Part shown: positions 11,796 to 33,172 of the stretch, in pieces
Layout: every line of letters begins with the position of its first letter
Numbering within the stretch: position 1 is the stretch's first letter
Virus record (IMG/VR): IMGVR_UViG_3300011116_001020
Location: 1-38,396 of that record
Strand: one strand, 5' to 3'
Origin: a virus
Length of the DNA: 38,396 nt
Program-made: the position numbers and the translations under genes
The notes under the pieces: generated by a model
What the model was told of the DNA's origin: nothing
The model's database searches: none
Seen by the model: only the letters and a program-made list of their open reading frames with translations

Positions 11796-12455
11796 ATGGC
11801 TGATTTTACACATGCCATTAACTTAATCCGAAAGTATGAGGGATTTAGTGAAAAAGCATGTCCAGATTTAACCACTGGTGCAGAGCCATACACAATCGGC
11901 TATGGAACTCAATACTACCCAGATGGCTCACCTGTAAAACGTGGTCAGTTTTGCAGTAAAGAAAAAGCCTTGGAATATTTGTTCCACGAAGTTCAAATCA
12001 TTGATAATCAGCTATCTAAATTGAATCTTGGCTTAGATGACTGTATGCGTCAGTCGTTGATCTCCTTTGTTCACTCCATTGGTTGGGAACCTTTTCTTTA
12101 CAGTGAGATTATCGATGCCATTGAGAATGAAGACTTTTGTGCAGCGACGGAGAACATGGCTGGTTGGGTTTTTGACTCGTATCACAAAGTCATTGGGGGC
12201 TTGCTTGATAGACGTCGAGAAGAAATCAAATTATTTTTGGCAGATATTGATACAAATCCCTGGGCATCAACTGCCATCTTATTGAGAGCGTTTCGCAATT
12301 ATGTTGCTGCTGATCATCAGGTCAGAGCAATTAGAAAGCTGGAAGAAGCAATAAGCCCTTATCACCTGGCAGAGTTTGCCAATGCTTTTGGTATGGACCA
12401 GCCAGGTTGGTTTGATTTTGACTGCGATGATGCCGGCGTTGTATTCAACAGCTAG
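11796..12455 (+). CDS. Endolysin, GH24 (T4-type) lysozyme
   Basis: I choose ATG 11796 (MADFTHAINLIRKYEGFS) over an upstream TTG at 11772, because GH24 proteins start with this helix and the TTG lies inside a hairpin. The active-site Glu is E15 in RKYEGFS, followed by YTIGYGT, as in phage T4 and lambdoid lysozymes that cut the glycan chain of peptidoglycan. The remaining 130 residues form the helical lobe (DCMRQSLISFVHSIGWEPF) and an extra C-terminal tail. There is no signal peptide, so release would need a holin; none is certain here. A hairpin directly before the start suggests translational control. Confidence 0.9.
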   Translation: MADFTHAINLIRKYEGFSEKACPDLTTGAEPYTIGYGTQYYPDGSPVKRGQFCSKEKALEYLFHEVQIIDNQLSKLNLGLDDCMRQSLISFVHSIGWEPFLYSEIIDAIENEDFCAATENMAGWVFDSYHKVIGGLLDRRREEIKLFLADIDTNPWASTAILLRAFRNYVAADHQVRAIRKLEEAISPYHLAEFANAFGMDQPGWFDFDCDDAGVVFNS

Positions 12456-12479: not shown

Positions 12480-12794
12480 ATGAAGACCGGGATGGAAAGG
12501 TCAGCTGAAGCCCGTGAGTTTGAGTTGCCTTTAGAGCTGCAGTTCTCCATGCGTAAAGCAGAGCTTGCTGCCCACGAAATGACATGGGAAGAACTGTTGT
12601 GCGCATTATTGAACCTCTACCACCAGCGCATGATGGAATGGTATGCAATCAAAGATATTCTTGCAGCTGAGAACATCGAGCTTGATTGGGATATTCCAAC
12701 CGACATTGAATTAGAACAACTCGCCGCCGCCTGTATGGACGACGACGAGGATGATGATGACGAATACGAAGAGGATCAGCTCCAGCCTTTCTGA
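12480..12794 (+). CDS. NblA-like phycobilisome degradation protein (candidate), 104 aa
   Basis: Residues 15-61 align without gaps to the NblA pattern as I recall it: FELPLELQFSMR matches FEL..E.EF.LR, AAHEMTWEE matches AEEMT.[DE]Q, and a Met-rich helix ending AIKDIL matches VI+DLL. NblA is a small helical adaptor that binds phycobiliproteins and the ClpC protease and triggers phycobilisome breakdown; freshwater phages such as Ma-LMM01 carry it. This protein is longer than the usual ~60 residues, with a C-terminal Asp/Glu tract (residues 87-98). It follows the lysozyme by 24 bases. The start is ATG 12480; ATG 12492 is possible. The assignment rests on a by-eye alignment and needs a profile search. 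Confidence 0.55.
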   Translation: MKTGMERSAEAREFELPLELQFSMRKAELAAHEMTWEELLCALLNLYHQRMMEWYAIKDILAAENIELDWDIPTDIELEQLAAACMDDDEDDDDEYEEDQLQPF

Positions 12795-12798
12795 GCTA

Positions 12799-13317
12799 CT
12801 AAATCTCTGCTTCATCAAATTCAATAAGTCGGTTTAGATACCACTGAGCTTTTTTCAGTGATTCTGTACCGCCTTTGCTGCGTTCGCGCCAGTTGTATTT
12901 TGCAATGTTCCCTTTCAAGTAACCACGGAACTCCTCCCTGGTAAGCTGGGCCTCAATTGCCTCAATACACTCGATAGTGCCTGCAGCAGTGTAATGGGAA
13001 GGATGATTAACTACATCTTCTTCCGCAAGATCTTGAGGGGAAATAACTGAGGTTAAGTCAAGTGGTTTGGTAGTGAGCCAGGGCACTGGACATACACCAT
13101 CCTTGCAGCCTGAGTCATCCGTCAGCGGCGTAAACCACGGCGCTTTTGTGACATCTCGATCATCTCCTGATTGGGTGCCCCCAGGTCCAGCACTAACGCC
13201 TTGGGTTTTGGTGACGCCCCCATCTCCAGGCCCTCCTCCATCGAAGGAATGTACCCCGTCATTCCAGGACGTTGCCCCTCGAGATGCAGTGGATTCCTCT
13301 CCAGACCCTGCTCGCAT
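12799..13317 (-). CDS. DUF3310 protein (phage nucleotide-metabolism associated)
   Basis: The last 70 residues are a clear DUF3310 domain: VVNHPSHYTAAGTIECIEAI, then EEFRGYLKGNIAKYNWRERSKGGTESLKKAQWYLNRLI. This family is common in tailed phages and sits with nucleotide metabolism genes; its activity is not well defined. Residues 1-95 are Gly/Ser/Asp-rich and look disordered. The stretch 13122-13317 also lies in another open frame on the same strand, so the true start is uncertain: ATG 13317 gives 172 aa, while GTG 13086 gives a 95-aa protein close to the usual domain size. It converges on the NblA-like gene with a 4-base gap. Confidence 0.85.
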   Translation of the reverse strand: MRAGSGEESTASRGATSWNDGVHSFDGGGPGDGGVTKTQGVSAGPGGTQSGDDRDVTKAPWFTPLTDDSGCKDGVCPVPWLTTKPLDLTSVISPQDLAEEDVVNHPSHYTAAGTIECIEAIEAQLTREEFRGYLKGNIAKYNWRERSKGGTESLKKAQWYLNRLIEFDEAEI

Positions 13318-20904: not shown

Positions 20905-20938
20905 TTGCCCTAGAGTTGATGCAAAAGCTTTAGGGCAA
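20905..20938 (+). promoter_or_regulatory. Hairpin overlapping the start codon of the GH73-M15 gene
   Basis: TTGCCCTAGAG (20905-20915) pairs with CTTTAGGGCAA (20928-20938): 11 pairs including one G-U, around a 12-base loop. The last base of the 3' arm is the A of the ATG. No T-run follows. Initiation would require the stem to open. Confidence 0.65.
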
Positions 20939-21957
20939 TGCCAATAAAATTTGTTGATGCTGCTCAATTTTTTAAAGGTGAGAAGCATCAGATTGACGCC
21001 TGGGAATGGCTTCAGGGTGAAGTAGATACTACAACCCTGGAGCTTTTTGCGTCTAAGTACCGTAAAGAAACAGCGGTAAAAGTTGTCGATAACAATAAGT
21101 GTGACAATAATTGGGAAGGTGTTCTAGCAGGTGCTTCTGCTGCTGGAGCCAGGTTCCCAGAAGTTGTTGCTGCCCAGTGGGCACTTGAATCAGGATGGGG
21201 CAAGGCAACGTCAGGTAAAAACAATTACTTTGGATTGAAAGGAAACGGATCTAATGTCAACACTCAAGAATTTATTAACGGCAAATGGGTAACAATTAAA
21301 GCAGGGTTTATTGATTTTCCAGATCTTCAAACCTGTGTCTGCTACTTAGTTGACAGGTGGTACAAAGACTTTGGCAAGTACAAAGGGGTTAATCGAGCTA
21401 AAGATCGTAACGACTGTGCCAAGCTTTTGGTAACAGAGGGATACGCAACAGATCCTGACTACAGCACCAAGTTGATTCAGATCATGGATCGGCAGACTGG
21501 TAAGCCTGCAGTAGATAAAAAAGAAGAAAGCAAAAAGACCTTTAATCCCTGGAGCCCATTCACAACACGTGTCACAGAACACATAACGTATGGTGAGTTA
21601 ACTCTCAGCCAAGAGGCAAGGCGTTTTACAAAACAACATCAATGTGATACAGCATTAGAACTGTGTGAATTCCTTGAAAAAGTCAGAGAAGAATTCAACA
21701 ACAAACCATTGATCATTACCAGTGCATCTCGACCAGAGCCCATTAACTCAGCCGTTGGGGGCGCACGCAATAGTGAACATACTTATGATGCACCCTCCAA
21801 GGGTGCTATTGATTTCTATATTGAAGGTATAAACATCTGGACGCTACAAGATTGGTGTGATAGGCACTGGCCGTACTCCATTGGCTACGGAGCAAAAAAA
21901 GGTTTTGTGCATTTAGGAATGCGGCCAGGCAAACCAAAAGTACGTTGGGATTACTGA
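20938..21957 (+). CDS. Two-domain cell-wall hydrolase: GH73-type glucosaminidase + M15 peptidase
   Basis: This 339-residue protein has two hydrolase domains. Residues 55-180 match the glucosaminidase (GH73) family: FPEVVAAQWALESGWGKATS with the catalytic Glu, NNYFGLKGNG, then DLQTCVCYLVDRWYKDFGKY. Residues 215-339 match M15 D-Ala-type peptidases: PLIITSASRPEPINSAVGG, SEH with H281, GAIDF with D292, and GFVHLGMR with H325 as likely zinc ligands. Spacing of the first two ligands is longer than usual. It would cut both glycan and peptide parts of the wall. With no signal peptide it is a virion lysin or a second endolysin. Its start lies in a strong hairpin. Confidence 0.85.
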   Translation: MPIKFVDAAQFFKGEKHQIDAWEWLQGEVDTTTLELFASKYRKETAVKVVDNNKCDNNWEGVLAGASAAGARFPEVVAAQWALESGWGKATSGKNNYFGLKGNGSNVNTQEFINGKWVTIKAGFIDFPDLQTCVCYLVDRWYKDFGKYKGVNRAKDRNDCAKLLVTEGYATDPDYSTKLIQIMDRQTGKPAVDKKEESKKTFNPWSPFTTRVTEHITYGELTLSQEARRFTKQHQCDTALELCEFLEKVREEFNNKPLIITSASRPEPINSAVGGARNSEHTYDAPSKGAIDFYIEGINIWTLQDWCDRHWPYSIGYGAKKGFVHLGMRPGKPKVRWDY

Positions 21958-26481: not shown

Positions 26482-26835
26482 CTAATTCGTCGGTGTTGTC
26501 GATCTTACTAACTCTTTTTCTTCTACGGTTTCTGCTTTCAACTTCTTTTTTAAAAACTCAGCGGCTCGATGCGTCTTTGTTTTATCGCCACAAGTATACA
26601 GATCAACTGCGCAATAACTTAACTCCGGCCACGTATGCACAGATGCGTGTGATTCTGCCAGCAGCGCCAACAGCGTCACCCCTTGCGGCTGGAACTTTTC
26701 CCCAAAGATTCGCAATATAGTAGCGTTTGCCATTACCAAAGAAGCTTCAAGCAACCGTTGAAGCTCTTGGTAATCGTCAAGAATACCTTGATCGCATCCG
26801 TACAAATCAAGGATTAGATGCCGGCCATTGCTCAC
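26482..26835 (-). CDS. speD: S-adenosylmethionine decarboxylase proenzyme
   Basis: This 117-residue protein has the size and motifs of the short bacterial SpeD: NGRHLILDLYGCD at the start, AESHASVHTWPE with the E61-S62 self-cleavage site, H67, and YCAVDLYTCGD with C82. Self-cleavage makes a pyruvoyl group on S62; the enzyme then makes decarboxylated SAM for spermidine synthesis. Cyanophages commonly carry this gene, and polyamines may help DNA packing or host photosystem stability. It starts at GTG 26835, one base overlapping the primase stop (TAGTG), so it is coupled to replication gene expression. Confidence 0.93.
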   Translation of the reverse strand: MSNGRHLILDLYGCDQGILDDYQELQRLLEASLVMANATILRIFGEKFQPQGVTLLALLAESHASVHTWPELSYCAVDLYTCGDKTKTHRAAEFLKKKLKAETVEEKELVRSTTPTN

Positions 26836-30803: not shown

Positions 30804-30905
30804 ATGAGAGGTTTTGTGTATGCAATTGCCAGTATCCTCCTGGCACTCTTGACAATCACTGCCATTGATGCCTACATTGTTTTTATCGCATACCCCCTCC
30901 GATGA
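30804..30905 (+). CDS. Tiny single-pass membrane protein, 33 aa
   Basis: ATG 30804 to TGA 30903-30905 encodes a 33-residue protein: MRGFVYAIASILLALLTIT, AIDAYIVFIAYPLR. Almost the whole chain is one membrane helix. Its stop overlaps the Hli start (ATGA), so the two are made together and may act in the same membrane. The size is that of small photosystem subunits, but I find no match to those I can recall (PsbI, PsbL, PsbT, PetG, PetL, PsaI, PsaM). Function unknown. Confidence 0.55.
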   Translation: MRGFVYAIASILLALLTITAIDAYIVFIAYPLR

Positions 30906-31144
30906 CGGGCCTACAAAAAATCCGTTACACCATCATTGGCTGGTATCACTGCATCTCATGGCTTCTGGTTGCCATCCTCAAGGAAGCATTACCCGATCTT
31001 TTTGGCATCCCCACCAACCCTTCTGATTTTGCTTGGTATGCAGAACGTATGAATGGCAGAGTTGCAATGCTTGCAGTAACTACTATTCTTTGTGTTGATT
31101 TCCTGACAAAGCAGTCGATCTGGACTACGATCCATGGCATGTAA
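30902..31144 (+). CDS. hli: High-light-inducible protein (Hli), 80 aa
   Basis: The C-terminal half carries the Hli chlorophyll-binding signature: AERMNGRVAMLAVTTILCVDFLTKQSIW, split here as AERMNGRVAML (47-57) and the membrane helix that follows. E48, N51 and R53 are the expected ligand and salt-bridge residues. Hli proteins protect photosystems by binding chlorophyll and carotenoid; cyanophages carry them to keep photosynthesis running during infection. The N-terminal 40 residues add a second hydrophobic stretch (CISWLLVAILKEAL) not present in the short phage Hli type. It overlaps genes on both sides. Confidence 0.85.
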   Translation: MTGLQKIRYTIIGWYHCISWLLVAILKEALPDLFGIPTNPSDFAWYAERMNGRVAMLAVTTILCVDFLTKQSIWTTIHGM

Positions 31145-32832: not shown

Positions 32833-32833
32833 T

Positions 32834-32903
32834 CGGTCGGTAGTCCAGTGGCAGGGCATAGGTGCAATGCCGAAGATAGCAGGTTCGATTCCTGCACGAC
32901 CGA
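32834..32903 (+). tRNA. tRNA-like sequence with abnormal anticodon arm
   Basis: The ends fold like a tRNA: acceptor strands CGGTCG and CGACCG, a T arm GCAGG-TTCGATT-CCTGC, and a possible D stem GTCC/GGGC. The anticodon region does not fold normally. A good stem, GGCAT/ATGCC, exists with loop AGGTGCA, but it uses the D-stem bases and places G rather than U at position 33. No anticodon can be assigned. It may be a decayed or unusual tRNA. Confidence 0.5.
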
Positions 32904-32906
32904 TAA

Positions 32907-33006
32907 CGCCCAGTCCGAGACAATTGGATAGTACGGCACCTGTTGATGCGTTGGACGCAACGCTATAAACAGTAATGCGATGCAGGTTCGAGTCCTGCCT
33001 GGGTGC
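32907..33006 (+). tRNA. tRNA-like sequence with a hairpin inserted in the anticodon loop
   Basis: The acceptor strands CGCCCAG and CTGGGTG pair over 7 bp (one G-U), and the T arm GCAGG-TTCGAGT-CCTGC is standard. The likely anticodon stem CTGTT/AACAG encloses 23 bases instead of 7, containing a perfect hairpin GCGTTG-GACG-CAACGC. Removing 16 bases gives a 7-base loop, but no cut places U at position 33. No identity is assigned. Confidence 0.45.
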
Positions 33007-33022
33007 TTATAATGATGTTGTT

Positions 33023-33094
33023 CGGGATGTAGCTCAGCGGTAGAGCGCCGTCTTTGGGAGGCGGATGCCACAGGTTCAAATCCTGTTATCCCGA
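33023..33094 (+). tRNA. tRNA-Pro(UGG)
   Basis: A full cloverleaf is present: acceptor CGGGATG/TATCCCG, D stem GCTC/GAGC, anticodon stem CCGTC/GGCGG with loop TTTGGGA (anticodon TGG), T arm ACAGG-TTCAAAT-CCTGT, discriminator A. CCA is not encoded. The tRNA would read proline CCA and, by wobble, CCG. Confidence 0.93.
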
Positions 33095-33098
33095 TCTT

Positions 33099-33172
33099 GC
33101 TGATGTAGCTCAGTTGGATAGAGCAGGACTTTTGTAAAGTTCAGGCCAGGAGTTCAAGTCTCCTCATCAGCT
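33099..33172 (+). tRNA. tRNA-Thr(UGU)
   Basis: A full cloverleaf is present: acceptor GCTGATG/CATCAGC, D stem GCTC/GAGC, anticodon stem GGACT/AGTTC with loop TTTGTAA (anticodon TGT), T arm AGGAG-TTCAAGT-CTCCT, discriminator T. It starts 4 bases after tRNA-Pro, so the two are surely co-transcribed. The Thr-rich fibre genes would benefit from extra supply. Confidence 0.93.

Follow-up and report, generated by a model that had tools for sequence, protein, structure and literature searches.

The open frame at positions 12480-12794 of the window (the whole stretch of 38,396 nucleotides of the viral record IMGVR_UViG_3300011116_001020) encodes a protein of 104 residues which, as judged by sequence comparison, is a diverged but genuine phage member of the NblA family. 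By gene content and order, the gene can be assigned to the S-EIV1 cyanophage lineage, and the protein carries what the alignments present as a new, conserved C-terminal extension on a phage NblA. This cyanophage NblA quite likely serves as an adaptor for phycobilisome degradation. The main features are given here with their coordinates and strand:

11796-12455, plus strand: phage lysozyme (endolysin) gene, directly upstream (PF00959, E 3.5e-15)
12480-12794, plus strand: nblA-like coding sequence, 104 aa, the frame comprising 104 codons and a stop codon (PF04485)
12522-12662, plus strand: predicted NblA domain, residues 15-61 (PF04485; AlphaFold2 helix 18-33, turn 34-35, helix 36-63)
12702-12740, plus strand: predicted helix of the C-terminal extension, residues 75-87 (DIELEQLAAACMD; AlphaFold2, kept in the alignments of relatives)
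12720-12749, minus strand: hairpin inside the nblA-like coding sequence, with a 12-bp stem and a 6-nt loop, followed by TTGTTCTAATT (terminator scan)
12738-12773, plus strand: acidic tract, residues 87-98 (DDDEDDDDEYEE; from the translation)
12780-12791, plus strand: C-terminal LQPF (xPF in relatives)
12799-13317, minus strand: convergent DUF3310 gene, its stop codon 4 nt from the stop of the nblA-like gene (PF11753, E 7e-18)
30902-31144, plus strand: gene of the high-light-inducible (Hlip) type (PF00504, E 4.2e-6)

Relationship to NblA in sequence and predicted structure

A Pfam hmmscan with the single protein aligns residues 15-61 without gaps to positions 1-47 of the 50 in the NblA profile PF04485 (E 5.4e-5), NblA being the one Pfam family that it reports. 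The ungapped alignment of this region to NblA had been claimed in a preliminary description of the locus, and the NblA-consensus motifs listed there, FELPLELQFSMR, EMTWEE and AIKDIL (residues 56-61), are all present in the frame. The score of the single protein is marginal, at 24 bits for a cut-off of 25 (i.e., 1 bit short), and the S-EIV1 copy reaches just 16-17 bits, both of which count against the NblA reading. When the whole record is searched, the match at 12522-12662 scores 24.9 bits, and 25.2 bits, above the cut-off of 25, if in-frame neighbours are included. One distant relative also passes the cut-off in a genome search, with 26.8 bits, and PF04485 is matched by all of the 29 relatives scanned (best E 2.8e-6). 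A profile of the family retrieves the solved NblA structure 1OJH from the PDB sequences without gaps (E 0.0012) and 3CS5 weakly, while in a profile-profile comparison residues 13-63 match an aligned set of five known NblAs, including those of the phages PaV-LD and Ma-LMM01, with a probability of 89% (E 2.4e-6). Since an HMM of seven known NblAs gives the protein 15.8 bits but at most 11.7 bits to any of 5,000 shuffled versions of it, and since every relative scanned matches the Pfam profile, the resemblance is not due to chance.

No model in PHROGs or NCBIfam matches the protein, and tblastn with a fragment of the Anabaena NblA returned zero phage records. Since tblastn also gave no link between the NblAs of PaV-LD, Ma-LMM01 or MaMV-DC and the present family, the known phage NblAs and the S-EIV1-lineage proteins are tied together by profiles only. 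Matches to the HRD1 ubiquitin ligase, whose alignment passes through the acidic tail, were set aside as an effect of composition; the side matches in Pfam, DUF4030 and PHF12 among them, are weak and absent from some members.

AlphaFold2, supplied with the family alignment and no templates, predicts helices at residues 18-33 and 36-63 with a tight turn between them and, further on in the full-length model, a third helix at 75-87 before an acidic tail that is disordered and of low confidence. Modelled alone, the core is a helix-turn-helix with a pLDDT of 92, and the predicted turn sits on Met-Thr, aligned with the Met-Ser of 1OJH. The lack of a PF04485 match, or a fold other than the helical hairpin, had been named beforehand as grounds for giving up the NblA reading; a match was obtained and the core is predicted to form a hairpin of two helices that turns at the position of the NblA Met-Ser, so the reading stands. 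Searches of the PDB with the full model (Foldseek and VIA-align) and with the core (Foldseek) returned no NblA; because such methods are weak for short two-helix hairpins, and hence uninformative here, this null result is not evidence against NblA.

The coding sequence is under strong purifying selection, as indicated by a dN/dS of about 0.1 in the core with synonymous sites near saturation. Its true start may be the ATG at 12492 (Met5) instead of 12480. Met5 is nearly invariant among relatives, and one of them (L102) possesses no start codon ahead of the equivalent position.

The S-EIV1 lineage and the gene neighbourhood

The sole match in the phage collection is AHV82245 of Synechococcus phage S-EIV1 (KJ410740), an orthologue of 63% identity which likewise follows a lysozyme gene; it differs in its tail sequence, in a hairpin lying further upstream and in being annotated as hypothetical, with no mention of NblA. 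Gene sizes and order in the window correspond to those of KJ410740, including the HNH, large-protein, lysozyme and dCTP deaminase genes. In IMG/VR, at least 450 loci encode relatives of the protein, and an NblA match is found in each of the ten large or reference relatives (nine larger ones and S-EIV1).

The claim that an endolysin gene lies directly upstream proved correct: the PF00959 lysozyme gene ends 24 nt before the nblA-like gene on the same strand, and this arrangement recurs in 128/128 loci with enough flank. A relative of the convergent DUF3310 gene occurs within 400 nt of the nblA-like gene in 117 of 127 loci. Among the 11 lineage records searched, the window included, 9 contain an Hlip-type match and none a reaction-centre gene of the psbA/psbD type (PF00124), some of the records being perhaps incomplete. 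S-EIV1 itself is listed with no photosynthetic gene, and its environmental relatives with hli and ptoX only (PMC5332604, Table 2). An S-EIV1-like prophage occurs in S. elongatus UTEX 3055 (PMC9239245).

Three further features of the window are an S-adenosylmethionine decarboxylase gene for polyamine synthesis (26482-26835, minus strand; PF02675, E 3.4e-35), a cluster of three tRNAs, Leu(caa), Pro(tgg) and Thr(tgt) (32833-33172, plus strand), and, besides the lysozyme, a second cell-wall hydrolase with glucosaminidase and M15 peptidase domains (20938-21957, plus strand). One relative of the nblA-like gene, L138, is located in a Euryarchaeota MAG, on a contig treated as probably misbinned phage. 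Other contigs of this MAG encode a different NblA-like protein of 113-115 aa (L145:1264-1605 and L146:1264-1611, minus strand), in which the NblA match is N-terminal only and the C-terminal end is acidic, and whose gene is overlapped by another long frame. These contigs probably derive from phages and were binned together with archaeal sequences.

The NblAs of PaV-LD (ORF022L, 54 aa), Ma-LMM01 and MaMV-DC (79 aa) are also phage-borne members of PF04485, but they score 47-52 bits and lack the acidic extension, and their genes adjoin nucleotide-metabolism genes instead of a lysozyme gene. The NblAs of marine cyanopodoviruses and cyanomyoviruses (Nadel et al. 2019, cited in PMC9602691) resemble the present protein in being diverged, some of them to the point of being detectable by distant-homology methods only. 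According to PMC9602691, nblA occurs in podoviruses, S-TIM5, S-SCSM1-like myoviruses and freshwater phages; the isolates given there for the marine NblAs are 14 podoviruses and S-TIM5, together with cyanomyovirus homologues of S-SCSM1, S-EIV1 not being among them. Since neither PMC5332604 nor PMC9602691 credits S-EIV1 with the gene, the nblA of this lineage appears to have been unrecognised so far; an earlier mention in the original S-EIV1 paper or in Nadel et al. 2019 is possible.

The C-terminal extension, the altered core and the proposed function

With the cyanobacterial NblAs 1OJH and 3CS5 the protein shares an ungapped helix-turn-helix core of 47-50 residues that starts with L.LE.QF..R. 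It differs from them by a third helix and an acidic tail, by an alanine at the position of 1OJH Lys53 and by a MEW.A.K stretch, peculiar to the family, in the second helix. The greater length (104 aa against about 60) and the Asp/Glu tract at residues 87-98 had both been pointed out before and are borne out by the translation, the tract reading DDDEDDDDEYEE. In the family, 40 residues beyond the NblA core are conserved, comprising the region of the DxPTxxEL helix (residues 75-87, outside the NblA profile) and the acidic tail. The net charge of the last 20 residues lies between -7 and -12 in all 63 distinct relatives, 55 of which end in xPF. Such conservation implies that the extension is probably functional, our best guess being a role in adjusting how the protein docks to ClpC or in offering the protease an unstructured end.

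Within the core, the position of 1OJH Lys53 is occupied by Ala62, lysine being found there in three of the five known NblAs aligned. Leu51 of the Anabaena NblA aligns to Ile60, with hydrophobicity retained, and Lys53 to Ala62, with loss of the lysine; we take both residues to matter for phycobilisome binding. The alanine thus counts against a phycobilisome adaptor. NblA contacts ClpC through a motif at its N terminus and phycobiliproteins through another near its C terminus (PMC4103541). In these terms, the present protein seems to have kept its ClpC side but to differ on its phycobilisome side, so that its substrate could have changed.

As a phycobilisome-degradation adaptor, the small helical hairpin would bind phycobilisome proteins and bring them to the host ClpC-ClpP protease. 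It would be made alongside the late genes, given its position just after the lysozyme gene, and dismantling of the antenna would free amino acids and lower light absorption during phage maturation. The conserved post-lysozyme position fits late expression, and the expression of phage nblA genes in cyanobacteria leads to phycobilin loss (PMC9602691). We infer ClpC and phycobilisome binding, late expression and bleaching for the present gene. The cyanophage setting, the presence of an Hlip gene and the failure to find PF00124 in any of the 11 lineage records count for an antenna-dismantling NblA.

A descendant of NblA might also have been retargeted, keeping the N-terminal part expected to contact ClpC and delivering another host or phage protein, or acting as a decoy that blocks ClpC or the NblA of the host. 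Conservation is indeed among the highest in the N-terminal half of the core (LPL..QF.MRKAE), the lysine on the C-terminal, phycobilisome side is lost and the new 40-residue extension is fixed. However, the second helix keeps its spacing and the core its hydrophobic end, the cultured relative S-EIV1 infects a Synechococcus, and functional phage NblAs are likewise diverged from host NblA, with 35% identity in the case of Ma-LMM01 (PMC4103541). Retargeting is rated as unlikely. It is less likely still, indeed very improbable, that the protein is no adaptor at all but some other small, helical and acidic product of the late module (an assembly chaperone or a lysis regulator) resembling NblA by chance: the invariable place after lysozyme and a trace match of the different NblA-like protein of L145 to a model of tail assembly chaperones (E 0.042) would fit, but the Pfam, PDB-sequence and profile-profile searches support NblA, above shuffles, the 104-aa sequence contains no hydrophobic segment of the length that a membrane span requires, and PHROGs offers no match.

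A minus-strand hairpin inside the gene and implications of the locus

The nblA-like coding sequence contains, on its minus strand, a hairpin that is conserved beyond what the protein demands. Synonymous positions of the stem codons CTC GCC GCC and GAC GAC GAG hardly change within the main subgroup while the neighbouring codons vary freely, and folding of the minus strand there lies on average 4.2 SD below a synonymous-codon null, as compared with only 1.0 for the plus strand. Among 23 sequences, 97.1% of the cells in stem pairs are paired and the covariation score exceeds that of all 500 shuffles, the pair counts being inflated by sequence relatedness and the 23 rows having been picked from those with the stem. 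Double changes occur at two stem pairs, the loop-adjacent one (in 8 sequences) and one in mid-stem, where U-A replaces C-G. When a hairpin is allowed anywhere in the last 135 nt, it is significant (p <= 0.05 against recoded genes) on the minus strand of 29 out of 37 non-redundant genes and on the plus strand of 5/37; the antisense strands of the lysozyme gene and of the convergent gene, used as controls, give 3/37 each. In the S-EIV1 subgroup and some others the hairpin occupies a different site, upstream of the tail. An intrinsic terminator would have a G+C-rich stem and then a T-rich stretch on the transcribed strand; here the stem has 12 pairs and the T stretch that follows it is interrupted (TTGTTCTAATT). 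No Rfam family covers the hairpin. With 4 nt between its stop codon and that of nblA, the convergent DUF3310 gene most likely has a transcript that ends inside nblA, and the hairpin is probably its terminator.

This raises the question of whether the acidity with which the tail begins is a mere by-product of the hairpin, whose stem is made of the almost frozen codons mentioned above, and not a feature of the protein; that idea, the least probable of those considered, is largely refuted by the comparison of subgroups, as the S-EIV1 subgroup and distant relatives keep an acidic tail with the hairpin elsewhere or absent, and the acidity extends well past the stem. The acidity thus appears to be selected at the protein level, because subgroups with the hairpin at another site are still acidic. 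Only tentatively do we propose the more specific combination in which the third helix and the acidic, PF-ended tail stand for a different ClpC docking or antenna substrate and the nblA coding sequence doubles as an antisense terminator for its convergent neighbour.

A single sequence would thus play two roles, encoding a protein on one strand and probably terminating transcription on the other. The conserved acidic extension represents a natural variant for probing how NblA adaptors engage ClpC. S-EIV1-like phages form a widespread lineage, to judge by the number of IMG/VR loci with a relative, and the combination of NblA and Hlip without psbA suggests that they take a route like that of Ma-LMM01, in which the antenna is dismantled instead of photosystem II being propped up.
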